Source: Microcaldota archaeon (lineage in GTDB: Archaea; Micrarchaeota; Micrarchaeia; Micrarchaeales; Micrarchaeaceae). Taken from it: 39,465 bases of DNA. Location of the stretch: positions 1 through 39,465 of the forward strand of contig JAJYUY010000003.1 of NCBI GenBank assembly GCA_021792295.1, written 5' to 3'. The translations under genes were made by a program, and so were the position numbers. Position 1 is the first letter of the stretch, and each line of letters starts with the position of its first letter. Of the stretch, positions 19,644 to 34,120 are shown one piece after another. Under the pieces are notes generated by a model that did not search any database, was not told the origin of the DNA, and saw only the letters and a program-made list of their open reading frames with translations.

Positions 19644-22418
19644 ATGAGGGGTTGCATGCTCGCGCAAAGGAGGGGGCAGATCACAATAGAGTTCATGGTG
19701 GTCTACGCTATTATACTGATAGTCTTCGTCATCCTGTTCTCGATCATAACAACGCAGCGCGCCGCGACCCTTGTGACGCAGCAGTATTCGCTGATGCAGC
19801 TGCAGGCGGAGGACATAGCCTATTACATAAACCATGCGATAAGCGCTGGCAGCGGCTACTCGGCAACGATAAGCCTCGTCAGCGGAGCCTCGTCGAAGCC
19901 CTACAACATAACGATGTCGAACATGGGCGTTGTTGTGCTGACCTCGAACACCGCGGGGAGGTACATCAGCGCGTATGCGTTCAGCAGCGCCCGCAACATG
20001 GTGATAAACGGGGCGCTCCAATCGTCGAGCAACGGCATAAGCACCTATAGCGTGGCCTCTTACACAGGCACCATGACGATAGCGAACGAGGGGGGCATAA
20101 TCTACATAGACCAGAGCCCTTACTCGACGCTCGGGCTCTTTGGGGACCAGATTGATGACATACACGAGAGCTACGCCGCCGGCTTCGACGGCGCAGACAG
20201 CTTCGTCAGCGTGCCCGACGCGCAGCAGCTGCGGCTCGACGGAGCGCAGCCGAGTTACACCATAGAGCTCTGGGCGAGGAGGGCTGCGATCTCCTCAGGT
20301 GGGCTGCTCGGTAAGCACACCGCTTCTGGAGGCTACGCGATCGGGATAGGGAACGGGGGCTGCAGCGGCAGCGAGATCAACTTCAGCAGGGTTGGAGTCG
20401 TAAACACGCTTTGCGTGGGTCAGCTGCCCTCTGACACGAACTGGCACCAGCTGGTCCTCGTATTCAATTCCATAGGCACCTTCAGCTACGTGGACGGAGC
20501 GCTCTCCGGCTCGAGCAGCGAGAGCGCAGCGGTGGCCTCGGCAACGGCCCCGCTTACGTTAGGCAACAGCTCGGGATCGCTCTACTTCAACGGGCAGCTC
20601 GGCAACGTGCAGATATACAACAGCTCCCTCACCCCCAGCCAGATAGGGAGCCTGTACAGGAGCGGGCTGCTCGGGCTGCCCGTCGAGAGCGGCAACCTGG
20701 TGGGCTACTGGCCCCTTAGGGGGGACGCGAACGACTACAGCGGCAACTCCTACGACGGCCAGTACCATGACGTCGCATGGCAGAACCTCGCCGAGCTGGG
20801 TATAAGGCTGCAGACGCGCGCGGGCGCGCCACTCGCCAACGGGATCGTGGGGATCGTCGACAACGGCAGCGCGACCGTGGGCCCGAATGCTGTGGCGGCC
20901 TCGCTTACAGCGTCGTCAGGGGGCATCCTGAACGCGTACGTCTCGTACGGGTCGGCAGGCACCGCGGTCAGCATATTCCCGTTCACGGGCAACATGAGCA
21001 CCGCCAACAGCCTGGTCGGCTGGTGGCCCTTCACTTACGGCGACAGCAATGGAGGCAGCATAGAGGACATAAGCGGCAATGGGGATGATGCGCTCGTCAC
21101 TAACGCACTTTGGCAGCGGCGCTCCAGCCAGGGGAGCTTCACCGCGTTGGAGGCGACAGTGCCGTCGAACCTTGAGAGCGGCTATGTGCGCGTGATTCCC
21201 GCCGGCGGGCTGCTGAACCTGCCCCAATCCGCCAACTTCACGCTTGTTGCATGGGTCAGGTACATGGGGCCGACGCCAAACTGCCAGAGCGTGTTCAGCA
21301 GCAACGGACAGGTGTCCAACGGCATAGAGCTCATGGGATACAGCGATTCCGGGAGCTGCGCGCTGCTATACATAGACGGCTACGGGATAGGCTGGCCCTC
21401 CTCGACCTACAACCTCCCGATAGGGAGCTGGGCGATGCTCACCGCCCAGTTCAGCGATGTGTATTCGAACCTCACCGCAGGAGGGAGCAAGCTGGCCTAC
21501 GTATACCTGAACAACACCCTAATCGCTTACAACAGCATACCCGGGTCGACGCCCACAACGCTCGGCAGCGCCTCTTCCATCTACTACATCGGCGCCAACA
21601 GCCCTGCAGGCGACGAGGCCTTCAACGGGCTGATCGCGAACGTCCAGCTCTACTCGCGCATGCTCAGCGCGGAGCAGATAGCGGCGCTTTATTCGAGGGG
21701 GGTGGCGTCGCTGCCTGTGCCAGGCTCTGGATTGGAGGGCTGGTGGCCGCTCCTCGGGGACGCGAACGACTACAGCGGAGGGGGGAGCAACGGCACGCTC
21801 TCCGGCAACGCACTATTCACAGGCAGCAGCTACGGGAGCAATGCTGATAATGGAGCATACGACGTGTTCACCTTCAACGGCATGCAGACCGCCAACATAA
21901 TGTACTCAGGCGCTCTCGGGCTGAGCGGGAGGTTCAGCGTTTCGCTGTGGTTCGAGAGCGCCAGGCCCTCCACGAACAGCTTCACCTCAGAGCTTTTCGA
22001 CACGCTGCAGACGGGCGGCAACACGCTTAACATAAGGCTGGCCGGCAGCAACAGCGTTGGCGGCTTCACAGGCATAGAGGGAAGCATCGGCGACGGGAGC
22101 TCCCAGCTCTCCGGCTCTGTCGATTATCCTTTCTCGTTCGTGCAGGGCTCGTGGCATCATCTCGTGGAGAGCTTCTCTGGGAGCGGATGGACCATCTATA
22201 TCGACGGGAAGTATGCCGCGTCGGGGAGCTACACCGGCACCCCAGAGCTGCTGGGCAGCGGAAGCTACATAGGTATAGGCGGCGGCCTGGGCCTGCCGTT
22301 CTACGGCCAGATATCGAACGTGCAGGTGTACAATGCTGTGCTTACGGCCACGCAGGTATCGCAGCTCTACCAGCAGGGTGCGCAGCCGCAGAGCTCGGTC
22401 GGGCTCTCCCTCGGGTGA
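19644..22418 (+). CDS. Large surface protein A: class III (type IV pilin-like) signal segment plus three LamG/ConA-like domains
   Basis: N-terminus MRGCMLAQRRGQITIEFMVVYAIILIVFVILF fits the archaeal class III Q-x-(S/T)-x-E pilin motif; LamG-like repeats near 20170-20760, 21010-21790 and 21850-22370, with NVQIYNSSLTPSQIGSLY and GWWPLLGDANDYSG signatures. Confidence 0.82.
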   Translation: MRGCMLAQRRGQITIEFMVVYAIILIVFVILFSIITTQRAATLVTQQYSLMQLQAEDIAYYINHAISAGSGYSATISLVSGASSKPYNITMSNMGVVVLTSNTAGRYISAYAFSSARNMVINGALQSSSNGISTYSVASYTGTMTIANEGGIIYIDQSPYSTLGLFGDQIDDIHESYAAGFDGADSFVSVPDAQQLRLDGAQPSYTIELWARRAAISSGGLLGKHTASGGYAIGIGNGGCSGSEINFSRVGVVNTLCVGQLPSDTNWHQLVLVFNSIGTFSYVDGALSGSSSESAAVASATAPLTLGNSSGSLYFNGQLGNVQIYNSSLTPSQIGSLYRSGLLGLPVESGNLVGYWPLRGDANDYSGNSYDGQYHDVAWQNLAELGIRLQTRAGAPLANGIVGIVDNGSATVGPNAVAASLTASSGGILNAYVSYGSAGTAVSIFPFTGNMSTANSLVGWWPFTYGDSNGGSIEDISGNGDDALVTNALWQRRSSQGSFTALEATVPSNLESGYVRVIPAGGLLNLPQSANFTLVAWVRYMGPTPNCQSVFSSNGQVSNGIELMGYSDSGSCALLYIDGYGIGWPSSTYNLPIGSWAMLTAQFSDVYSNLTAGGSKLAYVYLNNTLIAYNSIPGSTPTTLGSASSIYYIGANSPAGDEAFNGLIANVQLYSRMLSAEQIAALYSRGVASLPVPGSGLEGWWPLLGDANDYSGGGSNGTLSGNALFTGSSYGSNADNGAYDVFTFNGMQTANIMYSGALGLSGRFSVSLWFESARPSTNSFTSELFDTLQTGGNTLNIRLAGSNSVGGFTGIEGSIGDGSSQLSGSVDYPFSFVQGSWHHLVESFSGSGWTIYIDGKYAASGSYTGTPELLGSGSYIGIGGGLGLPFYGQISNVQVYNAVLTATQVSQLYQQGAQPQSSVGLSLG
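21737..21778 (+). repeat. 42-bp exact repeat inside LamG gene A (GWWPLLGDANDYSG)
   Basis: gggctggtggccgctcctcggggacgcgaacgactacagcgg, identical to 24968-25009. Confidence 0.85.
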
Positions 22419-22422
22419 TGTG

Positions 22423-22968
22423 ATGAGAGGCCAGATATGGAGTCTTGACGTCATATTTGCGCTGGTCATATTCAGCTTCACCGTCACCCTGCTAACGCTA
22501 ACATGGCTGAGTGTGAGCAACCAGCTCGCGGTTTCGTACGCCGGGTCAAGCGGGCTCATGGCGATGCAGGCGAGATCGTTCTCCGACATCATAATGTCCC
22601 CAGGAAGCCCAGCGGACTGGTACGAGATGATCAACACCACCAACAAGGACACGTGGGGCGCGGTGAGTCCAGGCATAACCTACCCGGGCAACGGCTCCAT
22701 ATCGCAGGCGAAGCTCCTCGCGCTGGTCTCGATGGCGAACAGCAACTACCAGGCGACCAAGCCCGAATTCGGGCTCGGCTACGATTATTACATAGCCATT
22801 CACAGCGGGCTGCAGTACCAGAACTACGTCAACCTAAGCATTGGGAGGAACCCCGCGTCGAACAATGCGCTGACCGTGTATGTCGACAGGGAGAGCTCCA
22901 TGATAAACGGGGTTCCGGTGGTGGTCGAGGTAATGGTCTGGTCGAACTCGACAGGTGGATTGACATGA
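22423..22968 (+). CDS. Surface protein B: small pilin-like protein with N-terminal hydrophobic helix
   Basis: MRGQIWSLDVIFALVIFSFTVTLLTLTWLSV; starts 4 nt after the stop of A; ATGA overlap with the next gene. Confidence 0.72.
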   Translation: MRGQIWSLDVIFALVIFSFTVTLLTLTWLSVSNQLAVSYAGSSGLMAMQARSFSDIIMSPGSPADWYEMINTTNKDTWGAVSPGITYPGNGSISQAKLLALVSMANSNYQATKPEFGLGYDYYIAIHSGLQYQNYVNLSIGRNPASNNALTVYVDRESSMINGVPVVVEVMVWSNSTGGLT

Positions 22969-25178
22969 CAAGGACAAAGGGGTTCGTGTTCACGCTAGAT
23001 GCGGTCTTCTCACTCATATTTGCGGCGGTAGCGATATCGGTACTACTGTATGTGCACTTCTCCAGCGAGATTCCAGCTTCTATACAGGGGGCGCAGGCGC
23101 GCTCGGTTCTGCAGTCGCTTGCGGGAACCAGCGCGGCCGCGGCGGCAGGAGGCTCTGCGCTGTGGAGGCAGGCGGTGGCGAGCGCGGATTCGAGGGGCTA
23201 CGGATGGCCGCAGTACGGGAGGGACGGGCAGCTCAGCTCCGCGACAGGGTACGGGCCGAGCGAGCCTTACCTTCTATACTCGTATACTGCGCCGTCCGAC
23301 ATCATACCGGTGCCGGTGGTCGGCGGCGGGGTTGTCGCGTTCGCAGCAGCAGGCGAGGTCTACGCACTCAACGCAACTACCGGCAGGCCGGCGCCCAACT
23401 ACCCGTACACCACTAGCGGGCAGGTGATAAGCTCGCCGCTCATCTACGGAAACGAGATAATATTCGCTAATTCGGTCGGGTACATAAGCGCGCTGAGCGC
23501 AGGGAACGGGATCGACGTGCTCTGGAGCAGCGATATAAATTATAAATATGTCACCACCCCGCTCGAGATGGAGGACGGCCACCTGGTCTTCGGGGTCAGG
23601 AACCAGAGCGGATACGGCTACGTTTACGCCATCGACCCAGTCAACGGCACGGTCGCGGCGAGCTACCCGACCAGCACCCCTGACGGGGGGCTGCTGAACT
23701 CGCTCGCCTTCTACAATGGTGGGTTCTTCGCGAGCAACGGGCTGGGTGCGGTCAGCATGCCGTCGGTCCTTGGGGCAGGGCTTGTCGCAATGAGGAGCAA
23801 CACGCCGGGCTTCGCGGGAGGATCGGGGTATTATGCTGTGACGAACGGCAGTACCGTATGCTACCACGGCCCGAGCAATTACCTCTCCAACGCGCTCGCA
23901 CACCTGGGCATCTACTGCATCAGCCCCAGCGGCAACATACTCGGCGCGCCTGCGATAGGGGACAACTATTCGATCTTCGGGGCCGGCGGGTCGATAATAG
24001 AGGTCGATCTTGCGCGCATGGTGAACGCCAGCTTCGGGATTGCGCAGAGCACATACAACACCACCCCCTCCATAGCCGGCGATACAGGATACCTGCTCGC
24101 CGGAAGCATGCTCTACTATTACAACAGGAGCGGAGGTGTGAGTTTCAGCGTAAAGCTGCCAAGGGACCCCTACCAGTACAACTACTCACAGGTAGCTGTG
24201 GCGTACGGCGACGCGTACGTGCCCGACGGCAACACGCTTTACGTGTTCGGGGAGCCGAGGCTGAGGGCGAACGAGAGCATGCTGAGCGCGCTAGGCAACC
24301 TTTATCTGAACGGGGGAGGAGGGCTGGCCGACCTGCTCCTCTATAATTTCTACAACTCAAGCGGCATTGGCATGTACCTGAATAACAGCTACGCCCCGGC
24401 GCTCCATGTAGCGAACTTCAGCGAGGGCGGCTACGCTGCGGTGCAGAGCGGGGTGCAGGTGAGCCCCGAGGCCGGGAACGCGGGCAACATGAGCGCATGC
24501 GCATGGTACAAGATAAACAGCCTCGCCGGCTATCACGGGCTGCTCTACAAGGGCACGGTCCACCCGAGCAATGGCAACATCATCGAGTACGCGATGGACC
24601 CTGGGGGGGCATCGCAGGGCTTTGCGGTATACGCACCGAGCGGCACAGAGATAGCGTACGCCAATGCCGTCAGCCCGCTGACAGCGAACCAGGTCGGACA
24701 CTGGTACTTCTCGTGCTTCGTCTACAGCTACAAGGAAAGCCTCGCCGACTTCTACCTGAACGGCACGCTATATCCAGGCACCTTTGTTGGGGGGACGCCA
24801 GCGGGTTACGGGAGCGGGAGATTGGTGATTGGGGGCGGTGTTGGAGGATCGTCTAACGCGCTTGTCGCGGACGTGCAGGTCTACAACTCCCTCATATCGG
24901 GGAGCCAGGTGGTAGCGCTCTATCGGGAGGGTCCGTTCGGAATGCCGCTGCAGAATGGAAGGATTATGGGCTGGTGGCCGCTCCTCGGGGACGCGAACGA
25001 CTACAGCGGCAACTCCAACATCGCATACCCGTCCAACGTCATATACACCAATTCAGGATACGCGCCGCAGTACCTAGGCAGCGCCTACGAAATAAGCAGG
25101 GCTGGCATGCCGGTGGTTCTTGATGACAACGGGATAGCGGAAAGCTACAATGTGAGTGTTGTACTATGGAGCAGTTGA
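22965..25178 (+). CDS. Surface protein C: pilin-like N-terminus, PQQ-like beta-propeller and LamG domain
   Basis: MTRTKGFVFTLDAVFSLIFAAVAISVLLYVHF; GWPQYGRDGQLSSATGYGP and repeated VYALNATTGRP / VYAIDPVNGTV blades; LamG with ADVQVYNSLISGSQVVALY...GWWPLLGDANDYSGN. Confidence 0.78.
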   Translation: MTRTKGFVFTLDAVFSLIFAAVAISVLLYVHFSSEIPASIQGAQARSVLQSLAGTSAAAAAGGSALWRQAVASADSRGYGWPQYGRDGQLSSATGYGPSEPYLLYSYTAPSDIIPVPVVGGGVVAFAAAGEVYALNATTGRPAPNYPYTTSGQVISSPLIYGNEIIFANSVGYISALSAGNGIDVLWSSDINYKYVTTPLEMEDGHLVFGVRNQSGYGYVYAIDPVNGTVAASYPTSTPDGGLLNSLAFYNGGFFASNGLGAVSMPSVLGAGLVAMRSNTPGFAGGSGYYAVTNGSTVCYHGPSNYLSNALAHLGIYCISPSGNILGAPAIGDNYSIFGAGGSIIEVDLARMVNASFGIAQSTYNTTPSIAGDTGYLLAGSMLYYYNRSGGVSFSVKLPRDPYQYNYSQVAVAYGDAYVPDGNTLYVFGEPRLRANESMLSALGNLYLNGGGGLADLLLYNFYNSSGIGMYLNNSYAPALHVANFSEGGYAAVQSGVQVSPEAGNAGNMSACAWYKINSLAGYHGLLYKGTVHPSNGNIIEYAMDPGGASQGFAVYAPSGTEIAYANAVSPLTANQVGHWYFSCFVYSYKESLADFYLNGTLYPGTFVGGTPAGYGSGRLVIGGGVGGSSNALVADVQVYNSLISGSQVVALYREGPFGMPLQNGRIMGWWPLLGDANDYSGNSNIAYPSNVIYTNSGYAPQYLGSAYEISRAGMPVVLDDNGIAESYNVSVVLWSS
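24968..25009 (+). repeat. 42-bp exact repeat inside LamG gene C
   Basis: Identical to 21737-21778. Confidence 0.85.
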
Positions 25179-27802
25179 GGGACAGGAAGGGATTCTTGCT
25201 GACGCTAGCAACCGTAGTGCTTGTAATCCTCATACTCGGGGAGGTGCTGACATACGTCTACACCAACCTGCAGTACGACACGCTGGACTCGCAGGGGACG
25301 CTGCCTTCCGCGTCCTCATTCCTTTACAGCAGCGCCGAGGCAGGAACCCCGCAGTTCCTCAACCAGAGCCTCGGCAGGGCGCTCGGAGCGCTGGGCGCAT
25401 ACGAGTCGGGCAACGTGCTGCTCCAGAACCAGAGCGTCGCATCCGCGCTCGCATCGCTGATGGAGAATGGGAACGTCTTCGGAGCCAACATGCTCGGATA
25501 CATGGGCGCCTACACACTCTCCGGATACAGCGCCAACATAGAGAACGAGGCGAATACGATAGGGCTCAACGTCAGCTTCTCGAACACGAGCGTGGTCGTC
25601 TACCAGAGCGTCCCGTACTCGGTCAACGCCATTTACCACTCGCGCATCACGATAAACGCAAGCTACGGGACCATATCCTATCCAATAACCGCCAATGGGA
25701 GCGTGATCCTAATTGGGGGGACCGACCCGTACGAGACCGGCAGCTCATTCAGCTATTCGAACCTCAGCGGCAACCTCGCCATAGGGGGGGTGCGCGCCGC
25801 CTCTGGAAGCAGGTCGCGGTACATGCTCGCCTACGGCAACCTCTTCCTGTATTCGAACGTCGCGAAGCCTAGCCCGGCGTGCAGCGACATACTCGCGGCT
25901 GTCTCGCAGAACAGCATATCCCACGACATACTGGCAACGGCGAACGCGATGGACCTGCCGGTTGGCGTGTGCGGCGCGCTCGGCCTGGTGACTTACAGGG
26001 CGAACAGCACGGCCCCGGCCAGGCCATACCTGGTATACGCGAGCGGCGGCAACTACATAAACGGGACGCTGGGCGCGTATGCGAACCAGGGGGTCCTGCT
26101 CGACGGGAATTCGCTCTCGCTGAGCAGCATCGGGGGCATAAGCTCTGCGATCGATTCCGGGAGCTACCTCGGCAGCGGCCTCGCCCCAGGCTTCCTGAGC
26201 CTGCTAAACGGGAGCACCTACGCCGCAGCGCCGTACGGCGCTGCGCCGTTGGGAATGCTCTGGAGGCAGGTCGGTAGCTTCTCCCCAGGCAATTCGATCA
26301 GCGCGTCTGGGGTCCCGGTGAACACGGTGTCTGGAGGCTATGACACAGTCTCCTTCTGGATGAGATGGTCAGGCGGCGCTGCCGGCGAGGTCCCGTTCGG
26401 GTTCAACTCGCCGACGACCACATACTACATCTACATAGGTGCGCAGGGGATAGGGTTCAGCACGGGCGGGGGCAGCCTGCTCGGGGCCGAGGTGGGGCCG
26501 AGATACGGCTTCATCAACGGCACATGGGTCAACGTTGTGGCAGGGTTCAGCAACGGCGTGCCCTCCGCGAGCAGCTCTGTGCTTTACATAAACGGGGTAA
26601 GGCAGCAGCTGCAGGTCCTGTCGGGGACCCTAGGCTCTGAGACGGCGAGCGGCGGCGTTGTGATTGGCGGCGTTGACGCCTCGCCGTACAACGGCTTCGG
26701 GGGGCAGCTGGCAAACGTGCAGGTATACAACACGCTCCTCAACCAGTACCAGGCCTTGCAGCTCTACCTTGACGGGATAAACGGGTTGCCGGTTAACAGC
26801 AGCCTCGCCGGATGGTGGAAACTGGACGGCAACGCCAACGATTACAGCGGGCGTGGCAGCACAGGATCATGGTCTGGCGGTGGACAATATTTCAGCACTC
26901 TTACTGGGTACACGGGCGACTCTTTCGACGGCGGATCGTTCTACAACGCGCCGGACGGGAGGGTCGTGGGGCCTGGATGGTGCTGGGGGCCTTCGAACTG
27001 CACGCTCAATACAGCACTGGCGCTCTATGCCCCATTCGAGCAATACCCGTACAACGCCTTCCCTGCGCGCGCCGGCGTGCTCGGAACAGGCAATGCGACG
27101 CTCCCTACAGCAGCGTATTTCGACTCGGAGCAGAACAGCAGCGTGGTCGCAACGAACGTTCCGCTCAACTCGGCAGGCGGCCAGTACAACACAGTATCGT
27201 TCTGGATGTACTGGAACGCGCCGGCGTCGGGCGCAGGGACCGCGGTGTGGCTTAACGGCTTCGGGCTGGAGGGCAACAGCGTCGACTTCGGGTTCGATGC
27301 GTCTGGAGGGAGCGGCATACTCGGAGTGCCATCGAGCAGCGTCAGCGGGCGATGGATCAACGTGATCGCCGCGTTCTACAACGGGGCGCTGAGCGCAAGC
27401 ACCGGCAACATGCTCATAGACGGGGTGCCGCAGGCGCTCTCAGGGGGCAGCCCTGGCACAATAGGCGCGTTGAACCCGGGGAACGTGGTAATCGGCGCGC
27501 AGCCGGGCGCTGACGCCCCGTTCTCCGGCTCGATCGCCGACGTGCAGGTCTACAACACGCTCCTGACCTCGGCGCAGGCGGCCGACCTTTACCTAAACAA
27601 CAGCGTGAACGGGCTGCAGCCGGTGGGCTACTGGCCGCTGGGCTGGGGGTACGGCGGGTTCTTGAACCAGACCCAGACGCTCTATGGCACCAGCACAGGG
27701 TACGCCTACAGGAACGGGATAGAATGCACAGAATCGAATTCTATAGATGCGGTGGGCCAGCAGTGCGGCATAGAGTTCCTTCCGGTCACTTATGGAGGTT
27801 AG
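25166..27802 (+). CDS. Surface protein D: pilin-like N-terminus with two LamG-like domains
   Basis: MEQLRDRKGFLLTLATVVLVILILGEVLTYVYTN; LamG-like repeats with ANVQVYNTLLNQYQALQLYLDG and ADVQVYNTLLTSAQAADLYLN; overlaps C by 13 bp. Confidence 0.78.
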   Translation: MEQLRDRKGFLLTLATVVLVILILGEVLTYVYTNLQYDTLDSQGTLPSASSFLYSSAEAGTPQFLNQSLGRALGALGAYESGNVLLQNQSVASALASLMENGNVFGANMLGYMGAYTLSGYSANIENEANTIGLNVSFSNTSVVVYQSVPYSVNAIYHSRITINASYGTISYPITANGSVILIGGTDPYETGSSFSYSNLSGNLAIGGVRAASGSRSRYMLAYGNLFLYSNVAKPSPACSDILAAVSQNSISHDILATANAMDLPVGVCGALGLVTYRANSTAPARPYLVYASGGNYINGTLGAYANQGVLLDGNSLSLSSIGGISSAIDSGSYLGSGLAPGFLSLLNGSTYAAAPYGAAPLGMLWRQVGSFSPGNSISASGVPVNTVSGGYDTVSFWMRWSGGAAGEVPFGFNSPTTTYYIYIGAQGIGFSTGGGSLLGAEVGPRYGFINGTWVNVVAGFSNGVPSASSSVLYINGVRQQLQVLSGTLGSETASGGVVIGGVDASPYNGFGGQLANVQVYNTLLNQYQALQLYLDGINGLPVNSSLAGWWKLDGNANDYSGRGSTGSWSGGGQYFSTLTGYTGDSFDGGSFYNAPDGRVVGPGWCWGPSNCTLNTALALYAPFEQYPYNAFPARAGVLGTGNATLPTAAYFDSEQNSSVVATNVPLNSAGGQYNTVSFWMYWNAPASGAGTAVWLNGFGLEGNSVDFGFDASGGSGILGVPSSSVSGRWINVIAAFYNGALSASTGNMLIDGVPQALSGGSPGTIGALNPGNVVIGAQPGADAPFSGSIADVQVYNTLLTSAQAADLYLNNSVNGLQPVGYWPLGWGYGGFLNQTQTLYGTSTGYAYRNGIECTESNSIDAVGQQCGIEFLPVTYGG

Positions 27803-28809
27803 GCCGCGCCTATCCCGGCGAACACGCCCTTGAGCAGCAGCTGGGAGATGAAGAATATGCCAAGCCCCGTGGCGATGAAAACAGGCATGTACTTCAGCCC
27901 CTTGATAGGGTTGCCGGTCGATATCGCGGCGAGTATCAGGCTTGCGAACGCCGAAACGGTCACTATTGAGGCTATCGCGAAGTAGTGGTACTCTGTTGGG
28001 GTTATCTTCGGCGGACTGGGCTTTAGGAACGAGAGCCCTGTTGTCGGCAGCCCCCCCGGGTTCGCCGCAAGTATGCCCGTCCACACGTTGCTCGTGACCG
28101 CGATCATCTGGCTGGTTATGCCGTATAGGACTGGGGAGGCTATCACACCGGCGAAGGCTATGAAGATGCTGTAGAGGAAGAGCTGGCCCGCGACCTCCTT
28201 CTGCGTGAGCTGCTGGCTCCTTATGTCCTTCGAGAGCTGCTCAAGCAGGTCGGCCATCGCCCCCCCGTATATTATCGACTCGGTTATCATCCTGACCGCG
28301 TGCGAGAGCTGGTAGGAGCGGTATTTCTTCGCTAGGCCCGCGAGCGCGTCGTTGAAGTTCTCGCCCTCGAATATGCGCATGTTCATGTCCTTTATGTCCT
28401 CGCTAAGGAACTCGAACTCGGGCCTTGCCGCCAGCAGCATCGCCCTGTCGAGCGATATGCCGCTCCTGAGGTTGGCCGACGCTATCTGCAGATAGTCGGG
28501 AATCATGGCCTCCATCTTAGTCTTCCTGTAGTCTATCCTGTACTCCATGTAGGCGTATATCATCGCGATGTAGAGGGATGCGAGGCCGAGCGCGACCAGC
28601 ACGTCGAGCAGGGAGTTGATGGCGTGGCTTTGAGACAGCGGGACGAAAAGGTAGAGCATGAAGGAGAATATGACGAATATCGCGATGAACCCGAGCACCG
28701 CGAGGCGCGCCACGCGCTCCACGCTGGTCCTCATGCCCGCCATGTCCAGCTCGTTCGATAGGGCGACCGCGACGTTCCTCGATATCAGCCTCTCGAACCT
28801 TATCGCCAT
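27799..28809 (-). CDS. TadC/GspF/ArlJ-like type II/IV secretion membrane protein 1
   Basis: 336 aa; multiple TM segments with YLQIASANLRSGISLDRAMLLAARPEFEFLSEDIKDMN...LLEQLSKDIRSQQLTQKEV. Confidence 0.82.
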   Translation of the reverse strand: MAIRFERLISRNVAVALSNELDMAGMRTSVERVARLAVLGFIAIFVIFSFMLYLFVPLSQSHAINSLLDVLVALGLASLYIAMIYAYMEYRIDYRKTKMEAMIPDYLQIASANLRSGISLDRAMLLAARPEFEFLSEDIKDMNMRIFEGENFNDALAGLAKKYRSYQLSHAVRMITESIIYGGAMADLLEQLSKDIRSQQLTQKEVAGQLFLYSIFIAFAGVIASPVLYGITSQMIAVTSNVWTGILAANPGGLPTTGLSFLKPSPPKITPTEYHYFAIASIVTVSAFASLILAAISTGNPIKGLKYMPVFIATGLGIFFISQLLLKGVFAGIGAA

Positions 28810-28813
28810 TGGA

Positions 28814-29902
28814 TCACATCGTGAAGACAGGCCTCGACGAGGTCGTCATCTTCAGGAACACTATCTGTAGGAACACTATCCCCACCACCCCGAACTCCAG
28901 GACGGTGGCGTTGACCGTGAATATCGATATGAATGTGGTGAGTATCGTCAGCACAGCGACGCCCATGCTCGGCACTATTATCCCGAAGAGCATGTAGAAC
29001 ATAGCGATCGCATTGAGCCTCTGCCCGTACCTCCTGAGCTCTATCACGCGCTCCTGGGAAAGCTGGTCGATCACCCCCTGCAGCGCAGAGGTCGTATCGG
29101 CGCCCGCCCTTATGGACACGGCCGCCTGGAGCATTATCCTCCTGAACGACGGGCTCTTCGTTTCGGTGACGGTCGCGTCTATCGCGTCCTCGAGAGGCGT
29201 GCCGAGCTGCACCTTCTCGACGATCTTCGCGAACTCCCTGCTCGCGAGCCCGTAGCCGCTGCTGACCGAGGTTATGGCGTTGAACAGGGGCATGCCGGAC
29301 CTGAGCGATATTATTAGGTCACGGGCCGCGAATATTATGTCCCTCTCTATCTTCTTCACCTCTGCGCCCCCTTTGCGCAGCGGAAGGCCCATGAAGAGCT
29401 GGAAGGAGGAGACGAATGCGGCTAGCGCGAGCATCACCGTCAGCAGCGCGGCAGGGGCGGCCCTGGCGAGCGCCTTGTCTAGTATGAGGAACGCGCCGCC
29501 GCCGACCGCGACGGCCAGCAGCGCTGAGACGACGATGGCGTTCATGACGAACTGGTAGACGCTCTGCCTGGAGCCCTGGACCTTGAGCGCGGTGGAGAGG
29601 CCCTTGCGCCTCATTCCTATGCTCTCTATATAGAGCCTGAGCTGGCCAAAGCGCGGTACCCCAGATGCCGGCGCACCCTTTCCAGGTTTGGATGCCCCCT
29701 TCGCTTCAGGGGCTGGGGCGGATTTACTTATTGATGACCGTTGCACAGGGGGAGGATTGGAGGGCTGTGGCGGGCGGGCCGGACTCGCCGCAGGCCCAGC
29801 GCGCCCGAACAATCTCGAGAAGGGCGATGGCTTGCCCTCCAGCTCTATGCGCTCCCCGTTTACCTCTATTGTGCGCTTCCTCTTGTCGAACACCGCCCTC
29901 AC
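28814..29902 (-). CDS. TadC/GspF/ArlJ-like type II/IV secretion membrane protein 2
   Basis: 362 aa; ERDIIFAARDLIISLRSGMPLFNAITSVSSGYGLASREFAKIVEKVQLGTPLEDAIDATVTETKSPSFRRIMLQAAVSIRAGADTTSALQGVIDQL. Confidence 0.85.
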   Translation of the reverse strand: MRAVFDKRKRTIEVNGERIELEGKPSPFSRLFGRAGPAASPARPPQPSNPPPVQRSSISKSAPAPEAKGASKPGKGAPASGVPRFGQLRLYIESIGMRRKGLSTALKVQGSRQSVYQFVMNAIVVSALLAVAVGGGAFLILDKALARAAPAALLTVMLALAAFVSSFQLFMGLPLRKGGAEVKKIERDIIFAARDLIISLRSGMPLFNAITSVSSGYGLASREFAKIVEKVQLGTPLEDAIDATVTETKSPSFRRIMLQAAVSIRAGADTTSALQGVIDQLSQERVIELRRYGQRLNAIAMFYMLFGIIVPSMGVAVLTILTTFISIFTVNATVLEFGVVGIVFLQIVFLKMTTSSRPVFTM

Positions 29903-30501
29903 TCCCCTTTCAGGAGCGAGAGGGCCTCCGAGAGCCTCTTGTCCCTCAGCGCCAGCAGGCTCGGATCGGCGCCCCCGGCATTGCCGGCAGCATTCGCACC
30001 CTTCATTGAATCGTAAAGCCCGAAGACTTCATCCCGGACTATCTCCATCTGGTTATTATCAAAAACCCTGTTCTTAATGCTTTCTATGATCTTCTCCAGC
30101 TCGGAGAGCTGGTCCGCCGCAGAGAGGTTCGGGAGCACAAGATTCGCGCTCCTTTGCCGCTTGAACTCTGGCTCTGGCTGCGGGGCCTTCCTGTCCGCAG
30201 CCACCGCCGATGCGATCGCGCTGAGCTCGCCTGCCGCGGCCCGCATGTGCGCCTCTGGCACCGGCGCTGCCATAGGAATCGGGCGCACGAACATGCCCGA
30301 CCTCGCGGTTGTTTGCTGCACCTGGCGGGACTGTGAACCCTCGATCGCAGACAGCTCGGCAAGCATCTCCGAGAAGGCCCTTGGCCGCCGCTCGACGCTG
30401 CTTCCGGATGAGATATCTGAGGAGACGCGGTCCACCGGCTCCTTCTTGGCAGCAGCCTCTATCCCCCTGACCAGCGCCAGCAGCTCTGAATATTCCGCCA
30501 T
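29899..30501 (-). CDS. Small hypothetical linker protein between ATPase and membrane components
   Basis: About 200 aa from ATG 30501 (MAEYSELLALVRGIEAAAKKEP); 4-bp overlap with the downstream gene; low-complexity middle region. Confidence 0.65.
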   Translation of the reverse strand: MAEYSELLALVRGIEAAAKKEPVDRVSSDISSGSSVERRPRAFSEMLAELSAIEGSQSRQVQQTTARSGMFVRPIPMAAPVPEAHMRAAAGELSAIASAVAADRKAPQPEPEFKRQRSANLVLPNLSAADQLSELEKIIESIKNRVFDNNQMEIVRDEVFGLYDSMKGANAAGNAGGADPSLLALRDKRLSEALSLLKGE

Positions 30502-30509
30502 ATGCCCAC

Positions 30510-32018
30510 CTACAGCAGCTCCCTCGAGAACTTCGCGTTCTCCGCGGCCAGCGCCAGCACCTTTGACTTGTCCCTGTAGTAGTGAGCGACGACGTAGCCC
30601 GCGTCGTCCATGTTCATTATGTCGTTCCTCACCATCCATTCGAGCACGGTCCGCTTCTCCTCGATGCTCTCGGCGAGCTCCTTGCGCGTGTACCCCCCGA
30701 ACAGCGTAAGGGTCTCCATGAGCCGCGTCATCTCGCTGATCCGGTTGAAGCTGTCGTTTATGACGTCCCAGCGGTGCAGCACGTTGACGTCGCCGCTGTC
30801 CAGCACCTCACCGAACTCGAGGAGGCGCCTTATCCCCTTCGCCCTGTGCCTGAACAGGACGGCTATGCCCCCGAGCGCGTTCATCGTTATCTTGGGTATG
30901 CCGATCGGGGGGTTGGTCATCCTGATTATGACGTCCTGCGCGTTGTCGGCGTGGACGGTGCTGTAGACAGCGTGGCCTGTGTGTATGGCCTCGAAGAGGG
31001 TTTCGGCGTCCTTCTCGGTCCTTATCTCGCCAACGAGCATCACGTCCGGCCTCTGCCTGAGCGCGTTGATCATGAGCTTGTACAGGGTCACCTCGCCCTT
31101 GCCCTCCGGGTTGGGCTGCCTTGACATCATCGGTATCCACTGCAGGAAGCTTGGGAGCATCAGCTCCCTCGTCTCCTCTATCGAGACTATCCTCCTTGTG
31201 GACTGGAAGAACATGCTGGTGGCGTTGAGGAAGCTCGTCTTGCCGCTGGCGGTCCCCCCTGAATAGAGCAGGCTGATCTCGTTCTGTATGCAGAGCCAGA
31301 CGAGCGCCGCTATCTCGCTCGAGACCGTCCTGTTCTTTATCATCGCCGTCATGGTCCACGGGTTCTTCTCGAACTTCCTTATCGTTATGGTGTTCCCCAT
31401 GTTCGATATCGGGTAAAGGGTCGCGTTGACCCTGGAGCCGTCGGCGAGCTCCGCATCCATCAGCGGGGTAAGGTTGTTTATCTCCCTGCCTATGCGCCTG
31501 CCTATCTGCGCCGCCTGCTCGTATATGGACTCGTCGCTCGGGGGCTTTATGTTGGTCCTGCACCATCCGATCTGCTTGTGGAAGACCCAGATGTAATCGC
31601 GCCCGCCGTTCACCGCTATCTCCTCGAGGTTGTCGTCGGCTATGAGCACCTCGAGGTCGCCCAGCCCCAGCATCATGTTGATTATGTACGAGGTGAGCAG
31701 CGCCTTCGTGCTCTCATTGGTGCCGGGTATGTACTTGTCGATCAGTATCTTGCTCGATTCCTTGTACCTTGCGTCGATGGCGCGCATGTACTTCTCGTCC
31801 TGGAGCCGCGAAGGGTCGACAGGCACCATGGTTATGAGCTCGCTCCTGAATGACATGAGCAGCAGCTTGGTGGCGTTGCCTAGGCCGGGAAACATCACGT
31901 TGTACTGCGGGGCGAACTCCGAACGGACCTCGCTTATCGTTATCTCGACGTGCATGCCGTGCGCGTCCAGGCCGTACTTTGCGAGCATCCTGTCCGCAGC
32001 TGATCCATTATCGGCCAA
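30510..32018 (-). CDS. GspE/TadA/VirB11-type secretion ATPase
   Basis: 502 aa; Walker A YSGGTASGKTSFLNA, RIVSIEETRELMLP, RQRPDVMLVGEIRTEKDAETLFEAIHTGHAVYSTVHADNAQDVI. Confidence 0.95.
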   Translation of the reverse strand: MADNGSAADRMLAKYGLDAHGMHVEITISEVRSEFAPQYNVMFPGLGNATKLLLMSFRSELITMVPVDPSRLQDEKYMRAIDARYKESSKILIDKYIPGTNESTKALLTSYIINMMLGLGDLEVLIADDNLEEIAVNGGRDYIWVFHKQIGWCRTNIKPPSDESIYEQAAQIGRRIGREINNLTPLMDAELADGSRVNATLYPISNMGNTITIRKFEKNPWTMTAMIKNRTVSSEIAALVWLCIQNEISLLYSGGTASGKTSFLNATSMFFQSTRRIVSIEETRELMLPSFLQWIPMMSRQPNPEGKGEVTLYKLMINALRQRPDVMLVGEIRTEKDAETLFEAIHTGHAVYSTVHADNAQDVIIRMTNPPIGIPKITMNALGGIAVLFRHRAKGIRRLLEFGEVLDSGDVNVLHRWDVINDSFNRISEMTRLMETLTLFGGYTRKELAESIEEKRTVLEWMVRNDIMNMDDAGYVVAHYYRDKSKVLALAAENAKFSRELL

Positions 32019-32024
32019 TCGAAT

Positions 32025-33308
32025 TCACCCTTCCACCTCGCCCTTTCCCCTCTTGACCCGCTCCTTCTCGCGCTCTATGCCCCTCTTTATCTTGTTGCCG
32101 ATCGCCTCAGCCTTGTCAGCGTGGCTCTCCAGCTCGTCCATCGCCTTCGCCTTCTTGTACATGGGCATCTCCTTGTCCGAGTCGAGCGCGTGCAGCTCCT
32201 CCATGATCAGGTTGACCTCCTTCCTTGCCTCGGCGACATCGGAAACGAGCCCAGCTATTGCGGCCTTCGAGGCCTTTATCTGCTCATCGATCTCGGAGAT
32301 GGATCCGAACGCCGCCTTTATCGCCTTCACGCTCTCCGACATTAGTTTGTACTTGGAGTTGAAGCCTGTGCTGATCGCCTTCATCTCGTCTAGCGCCCTC
32401 TGCCTCCTGTCCCTGAACCCTATTATCGCAGAGGAGAGCGCCCTCCTTGCCGCCTCCGTGTCCCTCTTCACCTCATTGACCTCCCGGGCAAGCCTGGCCG
32501 CCTCTGCCTGCTGCTCTCTTATCGCCCTGACGACCGATTCCGCGTCCGAGCCCTCGCTCTTCAGCCCTGTGTATATGTCGTCGAGCGACTTCCTGATTTT
32601 CTGCTTGAACTCCATAGTCCTCGCGTCCGCCTCGGCCTCCAGCGACTGGTAGAAGGCGTGCTTCGTGTCCTCAAGCTCGTGCATCGATTCCCTCGCAGCC
32701 TCGGCCCTCTTCAGCATTACGGATAGCTCCTCCAGCCTGTGCTTCAGCTCTGCGAATGCGTCGTCCGAAGAGGTAATGGAGGCTCTGGCGTTCAGCTCCT
32801 CCATCTTCCTGCTCATCTGCGCCATGTACTCCTCAGAGCTTTTCTGCATTCTCAAGAATGCGTTCGCCTTCTGCTCTATCGGCTCGTAGAGACGGTCGAG
32901 CTCGTTGAACATCTCCTGCACGTTCGGTAGCTTCTGCTTGTAGAGCGCCTCCATCCCGCTTACGTTGGCGGAGAGCGCGTCGAGGGCCTTCGAGAAGTTG
33001 TCCATCGAGACCCTCTCGAGCTCCATCTTGTTCTGCACCGCGAACTTCTGGGCCTCGACCTTGACCCTTACCGCCTGCTGCTCCCCCGGTGCTATGTTTA
33101 TCGGCTCGAGGTACATCTTCCCGACCTCGTAGCTCACCTTTATCAGCTTGGCCTCCTCGAGCACCTTCGCCCAGCTCTCCAGTATGTTCGGGCTGACGCC
33201 GAGCTCGACCGACAGGCCGGTAAGCTCGCGCCGGCCCCTGCTCTTCAGAGTTTCGAGAAGCGAATCGATGTTGGTGGTCGTCTCTGGGCTTGGTTGGGGC
33301 TGGTCCAT
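32025..33308 (-). CDS. N-terminal HTH-like domain plus long coiled-coil protein, first gene of the assembly operon
   Basis: LLETLKSRGRRELTGLSVELGVSPNILESWAKVLEEAKLIKVSYEVGKMYLEP followed by about 300 aa of heptad-like sequence; ATG 33308 preferred. Confidence 0.72.
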   Translation of the reverse strand: MDQPQPSPETTTNIDSLLETLKSRGRRELTGLSVELGVSPNILESWAKVLEEAKLIKVSYEVGKMYLEPINIAPGEQQAVRVKVEAQKFAVQNKMELERVSMDNFSKALDALSANVSGMEALYKQKLPNVQEMFNELDRLYEPIEQKANAFLRMQKSSEEYMAQMSRKMEELNARASITSSDDAFAELKHRLEELSVMLKRAEAARESMHELEDTKHAFYQSLEAEADARTMEFKQKIRKSLDDIYTGLKSEGSDAESVVRAIREQQAEAARLAREVNEVKRDTEAARRALSSAIIGFRDRRQRALDEMKAISTGFNSKYKLMSESVKAIKAAFGSISEIDEQIKASKAAIAGLVSDVAEARKEVNLIMEELHALDSDKEMPMYKKAKAMDELESHADKAEAIGNKIKRGIEREKERVKRGKGEVEG

Positions 33309-33442: not shown

Positions 33443-34120
33443 TCAAATCAGTACCCTGTAGAACATTGAGAAGGCAAGAGCTATGATTATCACGAAGATC
33501 AGGTAGGATATCGGGATTATAGGCACGAAGGCGAGCATCAGCACCAGTATCAGTCCCATCATGCTGGCGTAGACCGGCAGGCTCCACGAGAGCACCTTGC
33601 TGCCGTCGAATGGGAAGATTGGGAGCATGTTGAAGAAGGCGAGCCATATGCTTATGAAGATGACGAACTGTATTGCGGTGGCCGCGTATGTGCCGGTAAA
33701 GAACTGGCCGGCCGCCAGAAAGAGGGCAAATATCGCGAGGTTCGCCGCTGGGCCCGCGAGCGACACGATCCCATTCTGGCGCTTCGTGAAGCTGTGCGAG
33801 AATATGTAGGTGGCGCCGGGTATGCCTATAAGGAATCCGAAGGCGCCGCTGGCGAGCGTTATCAGGAGGCCTATCCTCGAGCTCCTGAATTCGGCGATTG
33901 CGCCGTACCTCTGTGCGACGAACTTGTGCATGAGCTCATGCAGAACGAACGAGAGCGTGACCCCTAGTGCAGATATGGGCAGCGCTGCGATGAAGCCCGA
34001 AAGGAATCCGTGGATGCCGTATCTCCCGAGTATCAGCGAGAAGGCAACGATCAGGACGAGGTCTGCGATGATTATATCGCGTATCTCTGTAATGCTGGAT
34101 ATGTTGTGCCGCATCGCCAC
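33443..34120 (-). CDS. M50-family (site-2 protease-like) membrane metalloprotease
   Basis: 225 aa, multiple TM; HELMHKFVAQRYGA (HExxH) and NMLPIFPFDGSKVLSW. Confidence 0.88.
   Translation of the reverse strand: MAMRHNISSITEIRDIIIADLVLIVAFSLILGRYGIHGFLSGFIAALPISALGVTLSFVLHELMHKFVAQRYGAIAEFRSSRIGLLITLASGAFGFLIGIPGATYIFSHSFTKRQNGIVSLAGPAANLAIFALFLAAGQFFTGTYAATAIQFVIFISIWLAFFNMLPIFPFDGSKVLSWSLPVYASMMGLILVLMLAFVPIIPISYLIFVIIIALAFSMFYRVLI

Follow-up and report, generated by a model that had tools for sequence, protein, structure and literature searches.

The stretch of DNA that we analyzed (the window) comprises 39,465 nucleotides of contig JAJYUY010000003.1 from a Microcaldota archaeon, a tiny and probably host-dependent member of the Micrarchaeaceae. 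Based on gene content and comparisons with relatives, we think it probable that this micrarchaeon's main type IV pilus machine is encoded in the region at 19644-33308, together with four pilin-like subunits (A, B, C, and D), three of them with LamG or β-propeller heads, and that these function as an attachment device. The locus is a real and conserved archaeal type IV pilus locus, and it had already been noticed in one relative, Candidatus (Ca.) Mancarchaeum acidiphilum Mia14, in 2017 (PMC5498576).

The nine genes of the region are open and tightly packed, and they form two operons that face each other. Genes A-D are on the forward strand. Genes A (19644..22418, 924 residues) and B (22423..22968, 181 residues) are separated by 4 nucleotides, and B overlaps C (22965..25178, 737 residues), which in turn overlaps D (25166..27802, 878 residues). 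The stop end of D overlaps by 4 nucleotides that of the last platform gene of the machine operon, which runs on the reverse strand. An initial annotation, made from the letters of the window, had described nine genes at these positions, a hydrophobic helix behind a short positively charged or polar stretch at the N-terminus of each of A-D, LamG regions in A, C, and D, and a convergent operon for an ATPase, two GspF/TadC-like proteins, a linker, and a helix-turn-helix (HTH)/coiled-coil protein. Our checks of the open reading frames, hydropathy, and Pfam domains bore out all of these descriptions.

The machine operon encodes a motor and a split platform. The ATPase (30510..32018, reverse strand, 502 residues) is of the VirB11/GspE type (T2SSE, 2.5e-32), and its best solved relatives are Archaeoglobus fulgidus GspE (2oap), FlaI, and CpaF. 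The two TadC/GspF-like platform proteins each have a single T2SSF domain: platform protein 1 (28814..29902, reverse strand, 362 residues, 5.2e-16) has a cytoplasmic N-terminal extension, with the first predicted transmembrane segment at residue 123, and platform protein 2 (27799..28809, reverse strand, 336 residues, 1.4e-14) is encoded next to it. A small soluble linker protein (29899..30501, reverse strand, 200 residues) has no predicted transmembrane segment, is conserved mainly over residues ~115-197, and keeps its position in most relatives. At the head of the operon is the HTH and coiled-coil protein (32025 to 33308 with an ATG start or 33317 with a GTG start, reverse strand), which had only weak HTH and coiled-coil matches, keeps its position in relatives, and is probably regulatory or a cytoplasmic accessory. 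No convincing known domain was found in this protein, the linker, or B among Pfam matches above cut-off and weak matches. The platform pair of this locus was the only one over the Pfam cut-off in eight genomes, seven of them near-complete. An archaellum was considered and rejected; the best NCBIfam match of the ATPase was FlaI, at 245 bits versus a cut-off of 550. Directly upstream of the machine operon there is a gene for an M50-type membrane protease (33443-34120), whose place is kept in many relatives and whose orientation is reversed in some members of a second family.

The gene set and its facing layout are conserved among relatives. Orthologs of the ATPase are found through the order at 58-73% identity, and those at 58-76% identity are from genomes labelled Candidatus Micrarchaeota or Micrarchaeaceae (two are labelled Marsarchaeota), including the complete Ca. 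Micrarchaeum sp. A_DKE and ARM-1; the window organism is a relative of Ca. Micrarchaeum. In 58 relatives, we compared the regions flanking the ATPase ortholog. Platform order was intact in 53 of the 58. The layout could be judged in the 45 loci with at least 6.5 kilobases (kb) beyond the platform, and in 36 of these B faced the machine together with two or more of A, C, and D. All nine exceptions have B somewhere in the genome: seven lack a match to A-D beside the machine, and the other two (L094 and L099) keep LamG matches there with B on another contig. Among 46 near-complete relatives, all have the ATPase and 42 have B, and a profile search found the B family across the phylum, in 226 of 302 genomes. 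The set is more than a chance association: dozens of genomes share both its genes and their layout, with protein identities of ~25-50%. The initial annotation had proposed A-D as the exported filament or tip-adhesin complex of the facing machine, with a lack of synteny or co-occurrence set beforehand as the refuting result; these counts leave standing the reading of A-D as pilin-type clients of that machine.

Genes A, C, and D encode large extracellular-type domains behind a pilin-like N-terminus. Gene A is pilin-like to residue ~165 and then has three LamG domains (PF13385, 1.4e-49, above the gathering score, as are the LamG matches that follow); C has a PQQ-type β-propeller (1.3e-9) and one LamG (4.8e-15); and D is conserved to residue ~370 and has two LamG domains (1.5e-19). 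Searches of the available genome, which is 68% complete (629,573 bases in 35 contigs), were run by protein family, by single protein, and by sequence pattern, and LamG was confined to A, C, and D. Orthologs have kept these heads: LamG was present in 23 of 23 A, 31 of 32 C, and 30 of 30 D orthologs, and PQQ_2 in 23 of 32 C orthologs. Each of the four proteins has one strong N-terminal hydrophobic segment (residues 17-35 in A, 8-26 in B, 14-32 in C, and 10-28 in D); in C there is also a weaker segment at residues 112-130.

The N-termini of A-D are of the pilin type. When aligned, the starts have a basic residue, mostly G or A next, and then a family-specific motif: Q-I-x-x-E-F in A, Q-F-W-S-F-D in B, F-x-F-T-L-D-A in C, and x-L-L-T-L in D. 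In the window the corresponding sequences are RRG/QITIEF, MRG/QIWSLD, KG/FVFTLDA, and RKG/FLLTL (slashes mark the predicted processing sites). Q12 (+1) and E16 (+5) of A were invariant across 23 sequences, which is the class III signature, and Q4, S7, and D9 of B were invariant across 35. The leaders of A-D can be as short as M-K-[GA], a plausible length because PibD of Sulfolobus cleaves leaders of 3-4 residues (PMC4187195). The AlphaFold model of B (mean predicted local distance difference test score, pLDDT, 89.6) has a 55-residue helix (3-57), a short helix, and a sheet of four strands (121-174), the general plan of a pilin, and B has no LamG. In the low-confidence model of D there is a long N-terminal helix (6-82), and Foldseek with this model found LamG folds only. 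Matches of the B model to ribosomal protein S3-like structures had template modeling scores of ~0.25 and were treated as noise.

The strongest evidence that A-D are pilins is comparative and comes from homologs without LamG. Other families of the phylum have a LamG-free set in which A is 142-187, B ~164-213, C 165-202, and D 461-568 residues. The LamG-free homologs of A-C are thus of ordinary pilin size, and the most likely history is therefore that LamG was joined to pilin-like proteins that were already complete. At one locus in another family (L114), A, B, and C are pilin-sized and D has just one LamG, close to its end; all four face the same operon, and this D could represent an intermediate stage.

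A candidate prepilin peptidase and candidate major pilins are encoded elsewhere in the genome. The initial annotation had found neither a small pilin nor a prepilin peptidase; this is correct for the window, and both were overlooked because they lie outside it. The peptidase candidate is a 300-residue membrane protein on contig 24 (L082, 1023-1922) with the motifs D27-x-F-N-x-R-N-x-P and G85-x-x-D88, the aspartates of which were invariant in 30 sequences. Its Pfam match is weak, and simple hydropathy gives it seven segments, compared with the nine transmembrane segments of EppA. It was found in 56 of 60 relatives, including 39 of 39 near-complete ones, and the single peptidase of Mia14 has been termed FlaK-like (PMC5498576). 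Next to the peptidase gene, the end of the contig cuts off a gene for a protein made of Ig-like repeats (L082, 1-996).

The major-pilin candidates were recognized by a conserved motif. The strict Q+1/E+5 pattern found only A in the window genome and few proteins per relative, several of them close to pilus ATPases. We then used a DNA pattern for E-[FY]-x-x-T-Y-G-W (TYGW), with the reversed pattern as a control. TYGW frames were present in 100 of 100 relatives, with 1-48 in each, and the reversed pattern gave zero. Most are stand-alone pilins that start K-x/Q-S-A-[ML]-E. The window genome has three, of the E-Y-L-x-T-Y-G-W type: a plain one of ~160 residues and two longer ones, of 462 residues (weakly matching a propeller) and 514 residues (with DUF2341). 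Among 65 complete frames sampled, nearly all belonged to one of two size classes: those without LamG had ~148-198 residues from the glutamate (a few were longer) and those with LamG, 30 of the 65, had 273-347; Pfam confirmed LamG in all six of the long ones tested. Three relatives (G093, G068, and G058) have 48, 38, and 37 TYGW frames, a very large share for genomes of 0.8-1.3 Mb.

The TYGW pilins of Mia14 combine a constant stem with a variable head. Eleven LamG-headed TYGW genes are found within 23 kb of this genome (relative G011, loci L282-L284, 581-628 kb); four consecutive gene-to-gene distances are exactly 1974 bases, and two plain TYGW pilins follow near 627 kb. In six representatives of the cluster, the first 40 residues averaged 93% identity and the heads 42%. 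A constant stem with a variable head suits ligand recognition.

Taken together, the locus and the genome have a VirB11/GspE ATPase, a platform in the same operon, class III pilins (A in 23 of 23 sequences, and the TYGW proteins), and a candidate A24-type peptidase, as expected for an archaeal type IV pilus. We suggest that A-D would enter the membrane by the N-terminal helix and that the FlaK-like peptidase would remove a short leader by cutting behind K/R-G/A. Working via the two TadC-like proteins of the split platform, the ATPase would then extrude the subunits by packing their helices. A-D may serve as the initiating or minor complex, located at the filament tip or its base; the shaft itself would consist of TYGW-type pilins, many of them LamG-ended in related species, which are likely used by the A-D machine. 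The LamG and propeller heads would grip glycans or proteins on the host cell or in the biofilm matrix. A more elaborate version, which fits all the data and which we put forward tentatively, is a pilus of lectin subunits in which minor (A, C, and D) and shaft (TYGW) pilins alike would join a constant stem to interchangeable heads of the LamG or propeller kind, and in which head diversity from tandem clusters would set host or matrix specificity. In electron cryotomograms of Ca. M. harzensis and its host, small filaments were visible where the cells meet, and the authors ascribed these to the host (PMC8975820).

Several observations weigh against a pilus built in this way. A filament of A-D or TYGW proteins is so far a prediction from gene content, and 4 of the 46 near-complete genomes have no match to B. 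The acidic residue is at +6 in B and C and is absent near +5 in D, and the Class_IIIsignal match in A was below the Pfam cut-off (E 0.02). When the B model was compared by Foldseek, none of the solved structures was a significant match, and confidence in the D model is low (pLDDT 69). Additional, distant ATPases occur in relatives, and Mia14 is reported to have a second pilus locus (PMC5498576), so the TYGW pilins may be assembled by another machine. Regarding the N-termini, we consider the Pfam Class_IIIsignal family too insensitive for these proteins, and B and C (acid at +6) and D (no acid) may be deviating minor subunits. In lacking the usual glutamate, D may resemble GspK, the tip pseudopilin of type II secretion.

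The micrarchaeon also has a second GspE/VirB11-type ATPase gene, beside an FtsY-like gene on contig 20 (L081, 5659-7029), and no T2SSF platform was found on that contig. The distant ATPases of relatives are similar to it in length.

The best surviving alternative is a structure like the bindosome of Sulfolobus, in which the peptidase would process A-D and the machine would build them into a short binding structure embedded in the cell wall, with no long filament. We consider this unlikely. The large bindosome proteins of Sulfolobus do have class III signals, with no appendage seen there (PMC4187195), and heads as large as those of A, C, and D would be unusual for packed shaft subunits. However, the genome encodes pilin-sized TYGW pilins, A-C occur elsewhere in LamG-free forms no larger than other pilins, and ARMAN cells have been recorded making contacts that look like pili (PMC5498576). 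The two systems are alike in having large binding proteins with class III signals and a dedicated ATPase and platform, and they differ in that the bindosome has a single platform protein and ABC-transporter sugar-binding proteins as clients, whereas the clients here have LamG and propeller domains.

It is less probable still that the machine drives secretion or DNA uptake by a short pseudopilus, with the LamG heads as cargo or as parts that dock DNA or matrix. The superfamily includes such systems (PMC6668835), and DNA import has been suggested for DPANN pili (PMC7414124), but no secretin, competence, or secreted-enzyme genes were recognized in the window. Furthermore, LamG and the PQQ-type propeller, along with a DUF2341 in one ortholog, point to binding, as does the constant stem and variable head of the Mia14 cluster. 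We regard as very improbable the idea that A-D are ordinary surface lectins with an uncleaved Sec anchor that merely sit beside a pilus operon: it would account for the single hydrophobic helix in all four, the Class_IIIsignal score below cut-off, and the separation of the pilin cluster from the machine in several genomes, but not for the basic residue and Q+1/E+5 kept in every A ortholog, the pilin size of the LamG-free homologs, or the conserved convergent layout, all of which favor the pilin-type N-termini described at the outset by the initial annotation.

Our preferred reading, a type IV pilus with headed subunits, has precedents that limit its novelty. The initial annotation had presented a candidate new surface apparatus, and its newness was not supported. 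Golyshina et al. described in 2017 a pilus locus in Mia14 and many LamG proteins, some of them encoded in connection with pilus loci, for which they suggested that host contact is the function (PMC5498576). Mia14 has the layout described here at ~146-159 kb (locus L078), and position and gene number suggest that MIA14_0170-0177 is the orthologous locus. The Mia14 locus and ours are alike in the pilus genes, linked LamG genes, and a FlaK-like peptidase. The main text of that paper does not present the LamG proteins as pilin-type subunits, and it mentions neither the set of four genes and its conserved layout nor the forms without LamG and the TYGW pilins with LamG heads.

Large adhesins are also known from other archaeal pili. 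For clade 1 archaeal pili, Makarova et al. in 2016 assigned large adhesins with DUF2341 to the pilus tip (PMC4858521). These pili, of methanogens and Thermococci, resemble the system described here in the ATPase, two TadC proteins, class III minor pilins, two large proteins, and major pilins encoded elsewhere. Unlike in clade 1, the large domains here are LamG and propellers fused to the pilin N-terminus, the operon has no FleN/FlaH-type ATPase, and the major-pilin candidates are of the TYGW type and longer than 70 residues. A very short major pilin (~70 residues in clade 1) was not found, the smallest TYGW protein sampled having ~150 residues; other short pilins were not sought exhaustively. 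A split platform is a trait of Epd and Tad systems according to Denise et al. (2019) (PMC6668835), and we considered this assignment; the two adjacent single-T2SSF genes beside the ATPase are alike, but where FlaH or TadZ would adjoin there is the HTH/coiled-coil protein, with no recognized ATPase domain. Because two defining features failed, the neighboring FlaH/TadZ and the very short pilins, we do not file the locus under Epd/Tad. An apparent functional parallel is the use of type IV pili in episymbiosis by Saccharibacteria, which are likewise tiny host-dependent cells but are bacterial (PMC12206443). No description of LamG-fused pilins in DPANN was found in the open-access papers searched (supplements excluded). 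Relative to those papers, four points appear to be new: that the LamG proteins are pilin-type subunits themselves, that a core of four genes extends across the phylum, that forms without LamG exist, and that there are LamG-headed TYGW pilins whose heads vary.

Two further features of the genome are outside the pilus locus. The window contains a bacterial-type GrpE-DnaK-DnaJ chaperone cluster in this archaeal genome (6588-10177), and on contig 20 the frame of a Lon-type protease (L081, 1241-4477) is interrupted in frame by a stretch that, judged by eye, is intein-like.

How tiny host-dependent archaea grip their hosts is a long-standing open question. If the reading favored here is true, the gripping device would be named and its evolution, the addition of LamG to finished pilins, would be shown. 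It would also provide short lists of genes that can be tested in the cultivated relatives Ca. Micrarchaeum harzensis A_DKE, Mia14, and ARM-1. The constant-stem, variable-head cluster of Mia14 suggests that recognition may have been diversified without any change in assembly.

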